Origin: a virus
IMG/VR virus record: IMGVR_UViG_3300008450_000405
Location: 1 to 25,367 of that record
Length of the DNA: 25,367 nucleotides
Reading direction: 5' to 3' (one strand)
Shown: positions 2,029-25,082 of the stretch, piece after piece
Numbering within the stretch: position 1 is the stretch's first letter
Layout of the letters: each line of letters starts with the position of its first letter
Program-made: the position numbers and the translations under genes
Notes under the pieces: generated by a model
The model's database searches: none
Seen by the model: only the letters and a program-made list of their open reading frames with translations
Told to the model about the DNA's origin: nothing

Positions 2029-5000
2029 ATGGCAAAAAACATAATAGAATTCTCAGCATATTCAGCCAACACCGCATCATATGCAAACTATACTTCTTCT
2101 AAAACTGTGTTAGGTCCTGACATACGACAATTTACCGGATCCGTAGCTAGTGAATATTGGATAGGACCAAACTCAACTCGTTTTCAAGATATCACACAAG
2201 ATACTGGATTGAATAACTGGGGAGATTTAGATGCTATAACATATAGCGGAAGCAAACAATGGGTATTTGTATTACGCGGCGGGGCTACTGGGTTAGCAAA
2301 TGCTGAGATTGCGGCTTATGAATTTGATAAAAACACATATGAATACACTTACAAAGGCCGAACCTCATTTACCCCAGCAAATAATTCTGCAGTTGTAAAC
2401 CAAGGAATCAAAGCTAATGTAGAATATTACTCATCTGGGTCTGTTACTGTTAATGGAACAGTGGTTACCGGTACCGGCACAGATTGGATAGCAAACCGTA
2501 TACCCGTAGGAGCGCGCATTGGATTTGGCTCTACAAGCTCAGCAGACATCACAACATGGTATCGCATAGCAAGTTATCCTAGCATGTCCAATAAAACAGG
2601 ATTTACTGGTGCTCCTCAAGCAATTGCTGTTGATTCTTCTGGTAGTTTATATGTAGGAGGCCCATTTACAGCATATTCTGGTTCTTCTCCAACACGTATT
2701 GTAAAACTTACCCCATCTGGCTCAATTGATACTTCTTTTAATTCTGGAGCTGGATTTAATGCAGCAGTTAACGTGATCCGATTTGATAGTTCTGGTAGTT
2801 TATGGGTAGGAGGAGATTTTACCTCATATTCTGGCTCAACCGTTAACCGTATCATCAAATTAAACCCTAACGGAACGCGTGATGCTTCTTTTGACACCGG
2901 ATCAGGTTTCGGTGGTGGTTCTGTAATTGATATTCAATTTGATTCCTCCGGAAGTTTATGGGTAGGTGGAGGATTCACAACGTATAAAGGAGTCTCTACT
3001 CCATATATAGCCAAAATATTACCTGATGGTACTCGAGACACAACATTTGTAACTTCATCAGCAAACGCACCAAACACTTCAGTATATACAGTTGCAGTAG
3101 ATAATGCAGATAACGTGTATATCGGGGGTAACTTTACTCAAGTAGGAACAGTAGCCAATAACTCACGTTATATTGCTAAACTACTTAAAACTGGTCCTAT
3201 AGATTCTACATTCGTGGTTGGTCCCGCTGGTTCTAGTAATGCATTTAACGGGCCCGTTTATGCTTTACATTATAAATCTGTATCAAACAGCATAGTTGTA
3301 GGAGGGGCCTTCGGTCAATGGAAAGGAGTAAATAACGTATCATTAACCGAATTATCTGCCGTAGGTGATGTAATAATTACTGGACCAACCGCAACACCTA
3401 GTGTTCAAACATTCACCCCAGATTCATCAGGGAGTTTATATGTAAACTTTGGAATTAATGTACAAAAAGTTAGTTTAAGTACCTTACGAGCAACTAATTC
3501 AACCACCCAGCCTACTTTTAATCCCAACATAACATACGGTAACCTCAACTCTTTTGTATACCGCCCAGCATTAAGTCCTTCACAAAATAGATTATATATA
3601 GGAAGCCCTAATACCACCATCGATGCCGGCCTAGTATCAGTAGACACAACATATGGTGATCATGATCTTAATTTTCATACCACCCCAGATTATGCTTCAC
3701 AAGTTATAACTTTGAATACCTCTGCTGGAACTTTATCTCCAGGCACACCATATGTTATTGAAAATTTACAAATAACACTTAATAAAGCGAGTCAGCAAAC
3801 TAGTTTGATTCAAGGTATAGCATGGGATGATTTTACTGTAGCTGGTACCTCGATAGCATTACCCACAGCTGATTATGCTGCATTGAACAAAGGAATTTAC
3901 CAAATCTTAGATTACGGATATTTAGGCACTACCGAAAATGACAGCTATTTTAACACAGCAGTAACCTTAGGAACCACAGCTAACGATACTCGAATTATTC
4001 CCAAACAATCCGATGATACACAATACGTGTATGTTCGAAATACTACAAACCGTATAACAAGATACAACATAAAAAATTCTAAACTTAGAATTCATGGCCA
4101 TGCAGCCACAGCTGGTTTAATCACCTTTTCCACAGCAGATCAAGTCTTAATTACTGGAAATACTGGTGTTTCCGGATTCGGTACAGGTAAAGCTACTATA
4201 GCTACAATGCAGAGTGGAGATGCCTCCGGTAGTTTATCATATTATGGTGATTATAGTACTGGAGTTATTCAAATTGATTTAGATTCTATTCAAAATCAAA
4301 TTGTTCCTACCTACACACAAATGGCAGAAGTACCTCCAGGGTCTACTAACACTATTCCTTCTGCAGGTAACACAGGACGTGTATTTTATATGTCTACAAT
4401 TGATAAATTGATCATTTTAAATTCATCGGCCACTGCAAAAAGTTTTATTACAGATTACCGTGTAGATCTACAACAACCAACCTTATCAGGTACAGTGTAT
4501 GGTAGAGATACATTCAATCAATTATCCATTGATAATTCATATAATTTAGCATTCTTAGGAAACTTTGGACAATTGCAAGGCAACACAGCAAATATAAATG
4601 CTCCACGTTATCCTGATACACAAGGTACTGGGTTTTATGGAACTGTTGAAAACGGTGTTTTCCATTTATGTAGACCCTTAGCAACAGCACAAAACAACAT
4701 ATATGCTGTACCTTTAGGATGCGAAGCAGAATTTGTAGATTTCTCTAAAAATGCATTATATTCACCTAAATATACCCTAACAAACGTAGTTGCTATAAGC
4801 GGTCTATATGCAAATACTTTAAAACAATACGGTGCAGACCCATTTATTTTACCTCCAGAACCTATCTTTATATACTACCGAACAACAGGTATAGATGATG
4901 ATTCAGGTGAATGGAAAAAATACACCACAGTTGATGATTTAAATGCAGATATAGTATGTGAGGGAGTTTTAGAAAACCTAGAAATACAATTCCGCATTTC

Positions 5001-5385
5001 ATATCAAGTAGCAGGTAATACGTGCTTACCAAACCGAGTATATGGATTTACTTTGGTGTATGAGGATGATAGAACAGATTCACATTATGTCCCTTCTGTT
5101 GCAAAATCTGATTTAACAAATCGCATATTTGCATGGCAACAAACGGAATCATGGTATGGAAACATACCTGAATTAAAAATACGTTTATATAACGCAGCAA
5201 ACAACAAGATCATATACTATGATACAACTGCAACAAATGCATCTGGTACATGGCAATACTCAACAGATGGTACTACTTGGTTGACGTGGAATGCAACGGC
5301 TGATGCAGTTGGAAATTACATTAGATATGTTGCTGATTTTATTCCTTCTGGAATCAAACTTCGTGTTGGATTAAACAAGATATAA
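2029..5385 (+). CDS. large fibre/structural protein with seven delta-60 (beta-propeller) repeats
   Basis: This 1118-residue protein has an amino-terminal part (1-136), then a module starting about 137 (GSVTVNGTVVTGTGTDW) and including IGFGSTSSADIT (about 164-175). Seven units of about 52 residues follow (about 199-559), of the form FDSSGSLWVGGxFTxYxG, a spacer, IxKLxPxGTRDxSF. That pattern is the delta-60 repeat family, expected to fold as beta-propeller blades. The amino-terminal region, the IGFGSTSSADIT module and the carboxy-terminal 200 residues (from about 940, FIYYRTTGIDDDSGEW) are shared with the next gene, so the two are paralogues and this one carries an extra propeller. A receptor-binding or fibre role is inferred from the neighbourhood. 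The gene starts two bases after the preceding stop. Confidence 0.7.
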   Translation: MAKNIIEFSAYSANTASYANYTSSKTVLGPDIRQFTGSVASEYWIGPNSTRFQDITQDTGLNNWGDLDAITYSGSKQWVFVLRGGATGLANAEIAAYEFDKNTYEYTYKGRTSFTPANNSAVVNQGIKANVEYYSSGSVTVNGTVVTGTGTDWIANRIPVGARIGFGSTSSADITTWYRIASYPSMSNKTGFTGAPQAIAVDSSGSLYVGGPFTAYSGSSPTRIVKLTPSGSIDTSFNSGAGFNAAVNVIRFDSSGSLWVGGDFTSYSGSTVNRIIKLNPNGTRDASFDTGSGFGGGSVIDIQFDSSGSLWVGGGFTTYKGVSTPYIAKILPDGTRDTTFVTSSANAPNTSVYTVAVDNADNVYIGGNFTQVGTVANNSRYIAKLLKTGPIDSTFVVGPAGSSNAFNGPVYALHYKSVSNSIVVGGAFGQWKGVNNVSLTELSAVGDVIITGPTATPSVQTFTPDSSGSLYVNFGINVQKVSLSTLRATNSTTQPTFNPNITYGNLNSFVYRPALSPSQNRLYIGSPNTTIDAGLVSVDTTYGDHDLNFHTTPDYASQVITLNTSAGTLSPGTPYVIENLQITLNKASQQTSLIQGIAWDDFTVAGTSIALPTADYAALNKGIYQILDYGYLGTTENDSYFNTAVTLGTTANDTRIIPKQSDDTQYVYVRNTTNRITRYNIKNSKLRIHGHAATAGLITFSTADQVLITGNTGVSGFGTGKATIATMQSGDASGSLSYYGDYSTGVIQIDLDSIQNQIVPTYTQMAEVPPGSTNTIPSAGNTGRVFYMSTIDKLIILNSSATAKSFITDYRVDLQQPTLSGTVYGRDTFNQLSIDNSYNLAFLGNFGQLQGNTANINAPRYPDTQGTGFYGTVENGVFHLCRPLATAQNNIYAVPLGCEAEFVDFSKNALYSPKYTLTNVVAISGLYANTLKQYGADPFILPPEPIFIYYRTTGIDDDSGEWKKYTTVDDLNADIVCEGVLENLEIQFRISYQVAGNTCLPNRVYGFTLVYEDDRTDSHYVPSVAKSDLTNRIFAWQQTESWYGNIPELKIRLYNAANNKIIYYDTTATNASGTWQYSTDGTTWLTWNATADAVGNYIRYVADFIPSGIKLRVGLNKI
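2623..3706 (+). repeat. seven delta-60-type repeats within a coding region
   Basis: Units begin near 2623, 2779, 2932, 3091, 3265, 3409 and 3565, at about 144-174 base spacing. The first three are closest to each other (VDSSGSLYVGG, FDSSGSLWVGG, FDSSGSLWVGG) and the last three are the most diverged. Seven units fit a closed seven-bladed propeller. Boundaries were read by eye from the translation. Confidence 0.7.
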
Positions 5386-19119: not shown

Positions 19120-20442
19120 ATGATACTGGATCATGCAGATGATGTTGAAGCTACATTAAATTATATCAAGAATCGAAAAACTCTGATTGTTCCGATTCTG
19201 TGTAGTCCGACGTTGCCGGCAAAACATAATCCGGTATCGGTATTATATGTTTACACGGAAGATGGAATAGAGCGACTTGTGCCAATACGGCATACTGAAC
19301 AAATAATGGGTCATACCGAACATCTGCAACGATTTCTGGATCTCCCGAATGTCTTTGTGCATGACAAGAAGACCTGGCTTCAAATCGGAGGAAATGGGGA
19401 TGTATGGGATATCAAGACGTTGTGGTGGTATACTTACGGCGAAGCATATGATGAATCACATTATCCAACTGCAGCACATACATTTTATTGGCGCCGTCAT
19501 CCTGCAATGCCACACATCAACACCATTATTCCGATGCAACAGCATTTAGCAATGTGTCAGAAGATACGGCACTATGCTTGGCCAATGTGTATGAACGCAG
19601 AATTGACAGATTCATATCAGCATTTTGATTCGGTATATCCAGAAGTATTTGCAGCAATAGAATCTGCAGGCCTGCGAGTTACTGATGAATTTCGTATGCC
19701 AGAAATTGTAACAGATGGATTTGTGTATAGCAGTTATAACTATCATACCACCACCGGTCGACCCAGCAATGCAAACAGAGGATTTAACTTTGCGGCAATG
19801 AACAAGGAAGACGGTACTAGATCTGCATTTTGTAGCCGGTTCGCCGATGGGGCATTGGTGGAAATGGATTTTGATGCATATCATGTTAGACTGATTGCCC
19901 GATTAATTGGATATCCATTGCCAGATGGGTCCGTGCATGAATATTTCGGCCGATTTTATTTTGATACTGAAACATTAACACCCGAACAATACGATCAAAG
20001 CAAACAGATAACGTTTCGTTTGTTGTATGGCGGTATTGATGCTGAGTTTCTAACAATTCCATTTTTCCGGCAAGTAAATGACCTAGTATACACACTATGG
20101 CGGCAATGGAAAGCAAAAGGATATATCGAAACTCCAGTATTGAAACGTCCTATAACATCGGATTCGGTAAAAAACATGACAGCAAATAAATTGTTCAATT
20201 ATTTTTTACAAGCAACGGAAACTGAGGTATCAGTGCAAAAATTACGGCAGTGTCTTGCACTACTGCATGGTTATGAAACAAGAATGGTGTTATATACATA
20301 CGATTCCGTGATGTTTGATGTTCCGGTGTCAGAAGCAAAAGATATACTACCTAAAATTAAACACGTATTACAGCAAGGAAACTTTCCGGTGAAAGTATCT
20401 GTTGGTAATATTTATAACAAAATGAATACTATCACAATATGA
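19120..20442 (+). CDS. short, divergent family A DNA polymerase-like protein
   Basis: The protein has 440 residues; Klenow-size Pol A is about 600. TTGRPSNANRGFNFAAM (about 211-227) matches the TGRxSSxxPNxQN region. Motif A is MDFDAYHVRLIAR with Asp250 where Pol I has Asp705. Motif B is SKQITFRLLYGG with Lys295, Phe299 and Tyr303 matching Lys758, Phe762 and Tyr766. Motif C is TYDSVMFDV with Asp395 matching Asp882. Both catalytic Asp residues are present. The steric-gate Glu710 position is His, the motif-B Arg754 is lost, and the HDE triad is YDS. Residues about 20-110 look like a remnant 3'-5' exonuclease fold (hydrophobic strand pattern, VFVHDKKTW and VWDIKTLWW) but lack the acidic metal ligands. 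It lies between virion genes and unknown genes. The start is an ATG without clear ribosome site. It may be active without proofreading or have a specialised role. Confidence 0.75.
   Translation: MILDHADDVEATLNYIKNRKTLIVPILCSPTLPAKHNPVSVLYVYTEDGIERLVPIRHTEQIMGHTEHLQRFLDLPNVFVHDKKTWLQIGGNGDVWDIKTLWWYTYGEAYDESHYPTAAHTFYWRRHPAMPHINTIIPMQQHLAMCQKIRHYAWPMCMNAELTDSYQHFDSVYPEVFAAIESAGLRVTDEFRMPEIVTDGFVYSSYNYHTTTGRPSNANRGFNFAAMNKEDGTRSAFCSRFADGALVEMDFDAYHVRLIARLIGYPLPDGSVHEYFGRFYFDTETLTPEQYDQSKQITFRLLYGGIDAEFLTIPFFRQVNDLVYTLWRQWKAKGYIETPVLKRPITSDSVKNMTANKLFNYFLQATETEVSVQKLRQCLALLHGYETRMVLYTYDSVMFDVPVSEAKDILPKIKHVLQQGNFPVKVSVGNIYNKMNTITI
20408..20416 (+). promoter_or_regulatory. candidate late promoter element ATATTTATA inside the polymerase 3' end
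   Basis: This exact copy lies within the last codons of the polymerase-like gene, 22 bases before ATG 20439, the same spacing as the copies before the tube and chaperone genes. Because it lies in coding sequence (Asn-Ile-Tyr-Asn), the match could be chance, but the identical spacing argues for function. Confidence 0.45.
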
Positions 20443-21578
20443 ATATAAATATAGATTCTATTTTAACAGAATGGCGTTATCGTCTTCCTGCAGGTTATCC
20501 TAAAACCGCTGATGATTTTGGAATACTTCGAGATGTCATTTTAGAAATGACTGATGTAGATTTAACTGAAGCTGAACGTATTGTTCGTAGAGCCATGGGG
20601 TTAAATGAACAGCCCGAAGAAACACCTGCTGAAACACAATCTGGTTCTGGCATTTCAAATGCAGAAGAGTTTGAAACCTACATACGAGAACATTATTCAG
20701 TACCAGAACAGTCTATAGGCGGATTGCGTGTATTATATGAACAACTACGCGATGATGCCGAAGTTATGGAATTAATACAATCAAAAACACCTGAAGTATC
20801 AATACAGCCTGGACCTTTTAGGATACAAGGTAAGTTTGATCGTTTATATGATGCTATAGAAACAAATATTAAAATTAAAAACGGACATGCATCTGAACTA
20901 TGGTTTTCTATTGTATTTAAAGGTATAGTCAAAGGTGCTGTAAAAAATATACCATCAATGGGTATTGAAAATGATTTAAAATCTGATGTCGTAACAAGAG
21001 ATGGTACTAGATTTTCATTAAAAGCATATAATGATGTTACATTTGATTTTGGTATGTTACCTAAAAATGCAATCATGTATTTAAGAGCTTTTATGGCATT
21101 AGCAGAATTAATAACTGGAAAAAAGTTAGAGACATCTAGTCTCGGTATTACTGATATTAATAAAAATATTCTTCAACCATTAAATCAAGAAGCAATACAA
21201 GAAGAAATTAAAGAATTATTACAATTGGATTCTCCATTAATGGCAATTAAAAATTTACAAGATCAAATACGAAAGATAATGTATAATATGCATATTGATA
21301 CTATAGATTATCTAGAAAGTGTTACTCGAAGATTTTGTATTACTATAGATGAATATATTGAAAAACATGTGTCTGAAAATATTGATTATTGGGCACTTAT
21401 AGTTGTACCAAATAAAACATTAAATTTAATACCATCAACTACAATTGTAAATTCATTACAGCATACCGAAGAAAACGGCCATTATTATTTATCTACAAAC
21501 ATAGCTAATTTTCATCAAAATCATTTAAATATTAAAACAACGCAACTAGGCGTATCAGCGGCTCAATACAAGGATTAA
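20439..21578 (+). CDS. unrecognised phage protein with conserved-looking N-terminal motif and possible nuclease-like core
   Basis: This 379-residue protein overlaps the polymerase-like stop (ATGA). The amino-terminus SILTEWRYRLPAGYPKTADD plus a helical segment (RDVILEMTDVDLTEAERIVR) is followed by an acidic Pro/Glu linker (about 55-70). The core (about 125-230) has alternating strands, with Asp183 and a Ser-Leu-Lys at 193-195 (SDVVTRDGTRFSLKAY). That spacing is reminiscent of a PD-(D/E)XK nuclease core, but the canonical PD and Glu are not clear, so this is only a suggestion. The last third is helical. From about 20,820 the DNA becomes visibly more AT-rich than the flanking genes, which may reflect a different origin for the core. 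The function is unknown. Confidence 0.6.
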   Translation: MNINIDSILTEWRYRLPAGYPKTADDFGILRDVILEMTDVDLTEAERIVRRAMGLNEQPEETPAETQSGSGISNAEEFETYIREHYSVPEQSIGGLRVLYEQLRDDAEVMELIQSKTPEVSIQPGPFRIQGKFDRLYDAIETNIKIKNGHASELWFSIVFKGIVKGAVKNIPSMGIENDLKSDVVTRDGTRFSLKAYNDVTFDFGMLPKNAIMYLRAFMALAELITGKKLETSSLGITDINKNILQPLNQEAIQEEIKELLQLDSPLMAIKNLQDQIRKIMYNMHIDTIDYLESVTRRFCITIDEYIEKHVSENIDYWALIVVPNKTLNLIPSTTIVNSLQHTEENGHYYLSTNIANFHQNHLNIKTTQLGVSAAQYKD

Positions 21579-21582
21579 TGCA

Positions 21583-21969
21583 TTGAAAACACAATTACTT
21601 TGCACATTTGCACATCGCAGTGATTTAAATATCATAACCGAATACATACAAACAAGTTATGATGTCCCCGAACGCAGAATATTTGTGTTTTCCAATGCAG
21701 ATGTTCCGGACAATTTGTATTGCACATACAATGCATATGAAACCCAGCGTCGAGGACAGAATACTATAAGCATCCATCGCAAGAAAGAAACCAATACCTT
21801 GTATACGGTTAATGCATTGAATGAAGTTATACGACGAGTAAACAACGGTGTATTAGACAAAACATATCAACTAGATTGGCAGCGTTATCAGAATTCATTT
21901 ATATTAACGGATGATGCCGGATACCGTGTTATTAACTTGATATTCTTTAGGAAAATTGCTTGGGGATGA
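21583..21969 (+). CDS. hypothetical phage protein (128 aa, TTG start)
   Basis: The frame opens with TTG at 21583, four bases after the preceding stop. The nearby ATG at 21579 runs into a stop after one codon, so TTG is the best start. The protein begins MKTQLLCTFAHRSDLNIITE and includes YCTYNAYE, ISIHRKKETNTLYTVNALNE (about 64-83) and GVLDKTYQLDWQRYQNSFIL. The pattern RKxETNTLYTxNALNE is one I associate with conserved, uncharacterised proteins of marine T4-like phages. No catalytic motif or membrane segment is visible. It ends at a candidate promoter. Confidence 0.6.
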   Translation: MKTQLLCTFAHRSDLNIITEYIQTSYDVPERRIFVFSNADVPDNLYCTYNAYETQRRGQNTISIHRKKETNTLYTVNALNEVIRRVNNGVLDKTYQLDWQRYQNSFILTDDAGYRVINLIFFRKIAWG

Positions 21970-22522: not shown

Positions 22523-23302
22523 ATGGCGTTAGATTTAACAGCAATTAAAAACAAGCTTAACCAATTAAACAAGCAAGATGACAAGAAGAACAACTTGTGG
22601 AAACCTGAAGCAGGTAAGACACGTATCCGAATTGTACCGTACGTACATCGCAAAGACAATCCGTTTCTGGAATTGTATTTCCATTACGACATCGGTAAAA
22701 AATCAATGCTATCACCTATTTCCTTCGGAAATGCTGATCCAATCGTAGAATTCGCAGATAAACTAAAAAAGACAGGTGATAAAGATGAATGGATCATGGG
22801 TCGTAAAATCGAACCTAAGATGCGTACTTATGTTCCTGTTATTATTCGTGGTAAAGAATCTGAAGGAGTAAAGTTCTGGGGCTTTGGAAAACAAATCTAC
22901 ACTGAGCTTCTTTCTATTATCTCCGATCCAGATTATGGTGATATTACGGATCTAATGAATGGTCGTGATATTGACGTAGAATTCACGCCGGCGGTATCTG
23001 CGGCAGAATTTCCTAAAACATCAATTCGTGTTAAACCAGCAACAACCCCGGCTACTGAAGATAAAGCAATTGCTGAAAAAATTATGAATCAGCCTGTAAT
23101 TACTGATATCTTCCCGGAACCAACTTATGAAGAACTAGAGCAAGCTTTGACAGAATGGATGAATCCAGAAAATGCAGACAGTGATGTAACATCAACTGAT
23201 GAAGATGATGCACCAGCTACACCTGCAAAGGCACCAAAAGCCGCTGCTGCACCTAAAGTAGATGACGTGGCTTCTGCATTCAATGATCTATTCAATTCCT
23301 AA
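22523..23302 (+). CDS. single-stranded DNA-binding protein (T4 gp32-like)
   Basis: The protein has 259 residues (T4 gp32 has 301). It coats single-stranded DNA during replication and recombination. The basic amino-terminus (AIKNKLNQLNKQDDKKNN) would give cooperative self-contact. The core has LWKPEAGKTRIRIVPYVHRK, LELYFHYDI and VKFWGFGKQIYTELLSI, the OB-fold pattern of phage gp32 proteins. The carboxy-terminal acidic and Ala/Pro-rich tail ends DDVASAFNDLFNS, as in proteins that recruit partners through this tail. It contains no Cys at all, so the gp32 zinc site (His-Cys3 in T4) is absent. AAGGA lies just upstream of ATG. The gene is followed 10 bases later by the UvsX-like gene, its functional partner. 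Confidence 0.88.
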   Translation: MALDLTAIKNKLNQLNKQDDKKNNLWKPEAGKTRIRIVPYVHRKDNPFLELYFHYDIGKKSMLSPISFGNADPIVEFADKLKKTGDKDEWIMGRKIEPKMRTYVPVIIRGKESEGVKFWGFGKQIYTELLSIISDPDYGDITDLMNGRDIDVEFTPAVSAAEFPKTSIRVKPATTPATEDKAIAEKIMNQPVITDIFPEPTYEELEQALTEWMNPENADSDVTSTDEDDAPATPAKAPKAAAAPKVDDVASAFNDLFNS

Positions 23303-23312
23303 GGAGTAACGC

Positions 23313-24476
23313 ATGGCAAAGAGTAAAAGCAAACTAGAACTGGAAGATGCATTAGCAAACACATTGGCTGATAGTATCAACAAACAATTTAAAGGACAAG
23401 CTCTGAAAGCAGCTTTCTTTTTAGATGGTGACGAAGATGCCCCTAGCAATGTTAAAGATTGGATTTCATCAGGTTGCGACTCTCTTGATCTTGCAATTTC
23501 GAATCGACCGAACGGAGGTTTCCCAGTAGGACGAATCACTGAAATTACCGGGTTAGAAGCTTCAGGTAAATCTTTGTTAGCATCACACGCATTAGCAGAA
23601 ACACAGAAGAAAGGCGGGTTAGCAGTATACATTGACACTGAGTCAGCAACCAGCACTGAATTTTTGCAGGCAATTGGTGTAGATTTAAAAACCATGTTGT
23701 ATGTTCCATTAGAAACAATTGAAGAGATATTCGAAACAATTGAAACTATAGTTGAACAGGTTCGCAAATCAAACAAAGATCGTTTAGTCACAATCGTAGT
23801 AGACTCCGTAATGGGAGCATCCACAAAAATTGAAATGGCTGCTGAATATGACAAAGATGGTTACGCAACAAGCAAATCTATCATTCTTTCCAAAGCAATG
23901 CGAAAAGTTACAAATTGGATTGCTCGTGAAAATATTTGTCTAATCTTTACCAATCAACTTAGGACAAAATTAGGAGTATCATTTGGTGATGCATGGACTA
24001 CCTCTGGTGGAAAAGCAATTCCATTTCATGCTTCGGTTAGATTGCGCCTAAAGAACACAGGTATGATTAAGGCAAAGATTAATGGAGTAGAACAAGTTGT
24101 TGGTAGCAAAACTGAAGTGCAGGTTGTGAAGAATCGAATGGGTCCTCCGCATCGCAAAGTGAATTATGATATCTACTATGATTCTGGAATTGATAATTAC
24201 GGAGGATGGTTGGAAATCATGAAGAAGTTTGATCTTGTTAAACAGTCTGGTGCTCATTACACATTGGAAGATGTAGATCATGAAACCGGTGAAGTGTTTG
24301 GAGAAGTTAAGTTTCAGTCAAAAAACTTTGTAGAAAAGGTTATTAATAACACACAAATAAAAGATCGATTATACAGAAGAATCTGTGATGCTTACATATT
24401 CAGATACCAGGCTGGTGTAGATGGCGGAATTGATGATGTAATAATTGATGAAACAGTTATAGACGAAGAAGGCTAA
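23313..24476 (+). CDS. uvsX: UvsX/RecA-like recombinase
   Basis: At 387 residues (T4 UvsX has 391), it forms filaments on single-stranded DNA and performs strand exchange, loaded in competition with gp32. Walker A is GLEASGKS (80-87). The catalytic Glu is in IDTESATS, Walker B is IVVDSVMG (Asp164), and the L2/allosteric stretch is FTNQLRTKLGVSFGDAWTTS with GGKAIPFHASVRLRL after it, closely following RecA (NQIRMKIGVMFG...TTTGGNALKFYASVRLDI). The carboxy-terminal part is phage-type. AAGGAG overlaps the gp32-like stop and lies five to seven bases before ATG. It sits in an operon with the gp32-like gene. The following HNH gene begins six bases after its stop. Confidence 0.92.
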   Translation: MAKSKSKLELEDALANTLADSINKQFKGQALKAAFFLDGDEDAPSNVKDWISSGCDSLDLAISNRPNGGFPVGRITEITGLEASGKSLLASHALAETQKKGGLAVYIDTESATSTEFLQAIGVDLKTMLYVPLETIEEIFETIETIVEQVRKSNKDRLVTIVVDSVMGASTKIEMAAEYDKDGYATSKSIILSKAMRKVTNWIARENICLIFTNQLRTKLGVSFGDAWTTSGGKAIPFHASVRLRLKNTGMIKAKINGVEQVVGSKTEVQVVKNRMGPPHRKVNYDIYYDSGIDNYGGWLEIMKKFDLVKQSGAHYTLEDVDHETGEVFGEVKFQSKNFVEKVINNTQIKDRLYRRICDAYIFRYQAGVDGGIDDVIIDETVIDEEG

Positions 24477-24482
24477 CAAGTT

Positions 24483-25082
24483 ATGAACTACCAAAGAATA
24501 CATGATGCCATAATTGATAGAGCACGCAATCGAAAATTGCAAGGCTATTATGAACGGCATCATGTTATTCCTAGGTGCTTAGGCGGTAATGATGATAAAT
24601 CTAATCTTGTTGAATTAACAGCTCGAGAACATTTTATCATACATAAGTTACTTTGTAAAATTTATCCAAATGAACATAAGTTAGTTTATGCATATTGGAT
24701 GATGTCTAGAAATGTTTCAAATTCTAAGTATAAACGAAACTATAAAGTATCTTCGCGTGATTATGAATATGCACGACAATTATTTTCAGAGGTTTCTAGT
24801 AAATATCAATTAGGTAAAACTTTAACAGAAGATCATAAAAAAGCATTGAGTATTGCTGCTAAAACTAGAAAAACTAGAACTCCAATTACACATTCTGAAG
24901 AAACGAAACAAAAATTAAGTTCTTTATGGAAAGGAACTAAACGATCATTAGAAGACCGTAAAAAGATTTCAGATGGTCAACGAGGTAAGAAACATAAAAT
25001 AATAAAATGTCCTCATTGTTTTAAAGAAGGTGGAAACCGTACAATGAAACGTTGGCATTTTGATAACTGCAGAAATAAATAA
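24483..25082 (+). CDS. HNH homing endonuclease with NUMOD3 motifs and C-terminal zinc knuckle (Seg/Mob-like)
   Basis: The protein has 199 residues. The nuclease core is YYERHHVIPRCLGGNDDKSN with LVELTAREHFIIH after it: His26/His27, Asn41 and His50 fit the H-N-H metal site. Three NUMOD3-like DNA-binding segments follow (GKTLTEDHKKALSIAAKTR, HSEETKQKLSSLWKG, SLEDRKKISDGQRGK), then a Cys176-X2-Cys179-X12-His192-X3-Cys196 zinc knuckle. This is the architecture of free-standing phage homing endonucleases that cut intron-less alleles and spread to them. It is wedged six bases after the UvsX-like stop and three bases before the exonuclease start, and is AT-rich relative to its neighbours, consistent with later insertion. 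Its likely target is an adjacent gene in endonuclease-free relatives. Confidence 0.9.
   Translation: MNYQRIHDAIIDRARNRKLQGYYERHHVIPRCLGGNDDKSNLVELTAREHFIIHKLLCKIYPNEHKLVYAYWMMSRNVSNSKYKRNYKVSSRDYEYARQLFSEVSSKYQLGKTLTEDHKKALSIAAKTRKTRTPITHSEETKQKLSSLWKGTKRSLEDRKKISDGQRGKKHKIIKCPHCFKEGGNRTMKRWHFDNCRNK

Follow-up and report, generated by a model that had tools for sequence, protein, structure and literature searches.

A divPolA1 family DNA polymerase homologue with an invariant histidine at the steric-gate position heads a replication/recombination block in an environmental phage

The window analysed here is the whole stretch of 25,367 nucleotides of the IMG/VR virus record IMGVR_UViG_3300008450_000405. 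It encodes a protein of 440 aa that is homologous to family A DNA polymerases, and upstream of this gene lie genes for a tail sheath (8301) and a tail tube (10845), followed by conserved genes that are assigned to the baseplate by their position. Positions 2029-5385, in the tail-fibre end, encode a 1118-aa protein with DUF5122 beta-propeller repeats. Downstream, the conserved gene order is polymerase, 379-aa protein, 128-aa protein, gp32 and UvsX (Table 1). The polymerase gene is the first gene of a replication/recombination block, and the tail module ends just 5' of it. An earlier note, made from the sequence of the window, had described the polymerase gene as lying next to baseplate genes and in or beside the virion operon. 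The adjacency stands insofar as the tail genes on the 5' side end there, but it marks a module boundary only, and the proposed link to the virion operon is not upheld, as the gene comes first in a conserved block whose downstream members include gp32 and UvsX.

Among the immediate neighbours, the 379-aa protein has no function recognized by Pfam, and comparison of its model with Foldseek gave weak matches to HinP1I, PvuII and NhoI, none of which is significant. Its pattern of Glu153, Asp183 and Lys195 is typical of PD-(D/E)XK nucleases, which is why we tentatively assign it to this group; its relatives range from about 355 to 455 aa and share a conserved N-terminal stretch of 55 residues. Translational coupling of this putative nuclease to the polymerase is possible. 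The 128-aa protein, for which PHROGs gave no function, is about 80% identical among relatives and is likely a core partner of the polymerase block. Right after UvsX there is an HNH homing endonuclease gene (PHROG 655; 24483-25082), homologues of which were seen at just 22 of the loci compared.

Table 1. Features of the polymerase gene and its downstream neighbours in the window.
Feature	Position	Strand	Basis
Polymerase gene (divPolA1; family A homologue of 440 aa)	19120..20442	+	ORF; Pfam and PHROG; model and Foldseek; identity to immuto gp001
DnaQ-like exonuclease-type domain at the N-terminus (residues 1 to about 160), motif I acidic pair lost	19120..19599	+	Order of secondary structure in the model; Val24-Pro25-Ile26
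TGRPSN motif, residues 212-217, equivalent to Klenow TGRLSS; Arg214 = Arg668	19753..19770	+	Alignments
Motif A, D250-F-D-A-Y-H255	19867..19884	+	Asp250 and His255 invariant (112/112); alignment to E. coli Pol I
O-helix (motif B), residues 291-304, containing Lys295, Phe299 and Tyr303	19990..20031	+	Alignment; family conservation
Motif C, Y394-D395-S396 instead of HDE	20299..20307	+	Alignment; family conservation
ATGA overlap of polymerase stop and next gene start	20439..20442	+	Identical ATGA at 131/141 related loci having both genes
379-aa neighbour, tentative PD-(D/E)XK nuclease	20439..21578	+	Invariant Glu153, Asp183, Lys195; weak Foldseek matches
128-aa protein	21583..21969	+	Immuto, Mel-JY01 and LR756508 likewise have it next to the polymerase gene
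gp32-like single-strand DNA-binding protein	22523..23302	+	Pfam gp32 (E 3.3e-12); PHROG 1192
UvsX-like recombinase	23313..24476	+	Pfam RecA (E 7.8e-55); PHROG 97 (E 9e-69)

The polymerase ORF starts with ATG and its product, judged by sequence, does belong to the family A polymerases, although the match is weak. The Pfam model DNA_pol_A matches it with an E-value of 3.2e-8 and 33.4 bits, slightly below the curated cut-off of 34.3, and the same model is matched by 55 of the 56 aligned family members (best E 1.7e-12). The protein also matches PHROG 17, 'DNA polymerase' (E 1.3e-12), and in a profile-profile comparison residues 192-437 align with ten longer PolAs with 99.2% probability (E 7e-20). 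The AlphaFold2 model, computed from 53 window and locus sequences with the immuto, Mel-JY01 and LR756508 rows left out, has a mean pLDDT of 89.3 and a pTM of 0.88, and its top PDB match in Foldseek is the Klenow structure 1kfd (E 1.4e-20, TM 0.79 by query length). Both the polymerase fold and the catalytic residues of family A (Pol I type) are present. The small family A polymerase-like protein proposed in the earlier note is thus borne out by Pfam, by PHROG and by the Klenow-like model. Between relatives, the dN/dS ratio of the polymerase gene is 0.06-0.21, demonstrating strong purifying selection on a gene that is not decaying.

The window gene is a member of the already published divPolA1 family, a diverged group of family A polymerases found in far-T4-type phages beside their main polymerase, which was described in 14 phages of 155-190 kb as having an intact palm, a truncated thumb and a dead exonuclease, each phage additionally possessing a regular PolA, PolB or PolC (Yutin et al. 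2024, Virol J 21:200, PMC11348598). We found the name divPolA1 only in that paper and its preprint within the literature searched. The named example is Flavobacterium phage immuto (PMC11348598), and its gp001 shows 31% identity to the window protein over 86% of the length (E 2e-53). In the tree, all test divPolA1 members, including immuto gp001, fall into one clade with support 100/100. The two proteins share the palm with its catalytic residues, the truncated thumb, a probably inactive exonuclease domain, the status of an extra polymerase and the presence of replication genes downstream, namely gp32 and UvsX in the window and a 5'-3' exonuclease and a DnaB-type helicase directly 3' of the immuto gene. 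They differ in that the overlapping 379-aa gene of the window is missing from immuto, as it is from Mel-JY01, and in the companion polymerase, which is a full PolA in immuto and mostly a family B polymerase in relatives of the window's phage. Immuto (L083 18607-37015) also carries an annotated 7-deazaguanine DNA modification set (QueC, QueD, QueE, FolE and DpdA).

Two scans of IMG/VR yielded 239 and at least 597 relatives, respectively; PF00476 fails to match the distant Mel-JY01 member. A cellular origin was set aside after a pattern-based scan of cellular genomes, which distant relatives could escape, returned none. Origin as a recent duplicate of the main polymerase is ruled out for immuto, whose full-length 777-aa PolA is placed outside the divPolA1 clade. 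A split polymerase of the kind found in Rhodothermus phage RM378 was likewise rejected, since the DNA_pol_A_exo1 model matches only the full PolA of immuto; the two RM378 'polymerase' ORFs aligned poorly with the family and were excluded from the tree. Descent from a Herelleviridae-type PolA-SSB-UvsX module, an order that is present in Enterococcus phage Revolver, is an attractive scenario on which the tree gives no resolution. The PolA of Bacillus phage fHSPT3 (L202 910-4245), annotated as a hypothetical protein, is interrupted immediately ahead of its TGR motif by some 400 additional aa that look intein-like by their ends (CVSGDT...VVNHNT). A second group of extra phage PolAs, divPolA2 (AUR84708 from a Vibrio phage), resembles divPolA1 in lacking a normal thumb and exonuclease and in accompanying a regular polymerase, whereas its N-terminal domain is unrelated (PMC11348598); no sequence similarity between divPolA1 and AUR84708 was detected by hhalign (probability 0.4%).

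Residue conservation was counted over 113 distinct family sequences, 109-112 of which cover each of the seven active-site positions named next. Where covered, Asp250, His255, Lys295, Phe299, Tyr303, Tyr394 and Asp395 have no exceptions, and they pair with Asp705, Glu710, Lys758, Phe762, Tyr766, His881 and Asp882 of E. coli Pol I, respectively. The retention of both catalytic Asp residues and of the motif-B Lys, Phe and Tyr, noted earlier for the single protein, therefore extends to the whole family, and the two Asp positions are conserved in all homologues. With the polymerase fold present in the model as well, the finding passes both of the refutation checks that the earlier note had set. The replacement of HDE by YDS holds as well, with residue 396 being Ser in 106 family sequences and Ala in three. 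The position of Arg754 is occupied by Tyr in the window protein and by Tyr (58) or Arg (53) across the family.

The most distinctive position is that of the steric gate. In the MAFFT and in the hhalign alignment, His255 falls opposite E. coli Pol I Glu710, as the earlier note had read it, and this residue is His in 112 of 112 divPolA1 sequences and Glu in all 12 other aligned PolAs (E. coli, T7, immuto gp199, HMO-2011, CRP-3, four Herelleviridae, T5-like, P23-45 and crAss-like). By inspection, divPolA2 also keeps the Glu in its motif A (DFKAFE). The family A (Pol I type) trait of a Glu at the gate is thus absent from the divPolA1 family. In E. coli Pol I, Glu710 acts as the steric gate that keeps ribonucleotides out (PMC13228545), and Bacillus Pol I with the equivalent Glu mutated (E658A) was crystallised with rCTP (PDB titles 4dqq/4dqr). 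The text of PMC11348598, figures aside, does not contain the word 'steric', so the invariant His may be a novel observation. With less certainty, its substitution for Glu might change nucleotide sugar selection, or might not, given the bulk of His and the presence of Phe299.

In the model, the strands and helices of the first 160 residues succeed one another as they do in a DnaQ-like exonuclease, and the polymerase thus resembles Klenow both in its palm and fingers and in having an exonuclease-type domain at the N-terminus. The motif I site was located via the strand order in the model, and Asp355 and Glu357 of Klenow (DxE) correspond there to Val-Pro-Ile at residues 24-26, with Pro25 found in 105 of 106 sequences, in agreement with the loss of acidic ligands suspected earlier. 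At residues 134-142, the expected site of motif III, Asp is absent. Asp82 and Asp97 are conserved, and by position either might be the Asp of motif II, whereas divPolA1 was described as having all three catalytic aspartates replaced (PMC11348598). The 3'-5' exonuclease is likely inactive whether or not this Asp remains. The Klenow fragment begins at residue 324. In the window protein 214 residues precede the TGR Arg, compared with about 344 in Klenow, and about 130 residues are therefore missing; judged by position, most of them belong to the thumb, which is accordingly truncated.

A full polymerase is co-encoded in 17 of the 21 records with a divPolA1 gene, the remaining four being partial contigs. 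It is a family B polymerase in 16 records and a full PolA with exonuclease in immuto, and a representative PolB contains both exonuclease and polymerase domains. This agrees with the earlier suggestion of a non-proofreading PolA additional to a family B polymerase. The window itself, a 25-kb fragment, contains no full polymerase, so the second polymerase of its own phage is presumed from kinship. In LR756508.1, a 484-kb uncultured phage, the matches to family B polymerase fall into two separate open frames with about 6 kb between them (260623-266900; L209, L210), representing a split or interrupted gene. A homologue of the immuto DnaG primase was found in 8 of 8 records searched, which rules out the idea that divPolA1 makes up for a missing primase; a search with the DNAG_N profile had zero matches, immuto included, and is uninformative.

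Taking anatomy and context together, we infer, with somewhat better than even confidence, that divPolA1 is an accessory polymerase, distributive and non-proofreading, that serves gap filling or bypass in connection with recombination. A weakly gripping enzyme without proofreading, encoded alongside gp32, UvsX and the putative nuclease, would be suited to bypass, to the extension of D-loops and to the filling of short gaps. Co-produced with these three proteins, it would polymerise DNA distributively, fill gaps or extend D-loops in recombination-dependent replication and repair, and possibly synthesise past lesions, the full polymerase copying the genome while divPolA1 handles the short gaps. 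A precedent for such a repair-type role may be seen in the cellular PolA2/APEX and PolB2, extra polymerases with dead proofreading that are implicated in mutagenic repair (PMC12926913). Compared by description, PolA2/APEX is likewise an extra family A polymerase with an inactivated 3'-5' exonuclease, although it is cellular, actinobacterial and provided with a clamp-binding motif. Alternatively, activity could be very weak, in view of the changed gate residue, the Tyr in place of Arg754 and the shortened thumb.

From the same gene-order evidence, Yutin et al. favour a replication role (PMC11348598). On their interpretation divPolA1 would be a routine co-replicase acting in every replication round, for example at initiation, on one strand or in the maturation of lagging-strand fragments, together with gp32 and the phage helicase. 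The conserved place in the replication block and the exonuclease and helicase genes that follow directly in immuto are consistent with this role, whereas a short-thumbed enzyme without exonuclease, in genomes that also encode a proofreading full polymerase, argues against it, and we regard it as possible but unlikely.

The invariant His raises a further alternative, a relaxed sugar choice. A natural His gate fixed throughout a family might permit ribonucleotide-tolerant synthesis inside the gp32/UvsX recombination module of a phage, a proposal that we consider doubtful. That ribonucleotides are actually used in vivo, by a primer-making, RNA or mixed-strand polymerase, would fit the gating function of the corresponding Glu in Pol I and the rCTP-bound Bacillus mutant, but is improbable given that His may itself act as a gate, that the 'assistant' Phe299 is retained and that a primase is already present in all records searched. 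Least probable, and in our judgement very unlikely, is a catalytically inactive structural or regulatory DNA-binding protein, as might be suggested by the deviating motifs A, B and C, the short thumb and the dead exonuclease domain, because a scaffold would not need the catalytic Asp pair, the motif-B Lys, Phe and Tyr, the TGR Arg and Gln364, all of which are kept down to 25% identity.

The main additions to the published description of the family are the invariant steric-gate His, the abundance of the family and the conserved gene order. With at least 597 IMG/VR contigs, as compared with 14 genomes in PMC11348598, divPolA1 is common in environmental viruses. If active, the accessory polymerase proposed here would, for a family A enzyme, be very small and work with a short thumb, and the invariant His in place of Glu provides a concrete and cheap handle on the choice between deoxy- and ribonucleotides in divPolA1 enzymes.
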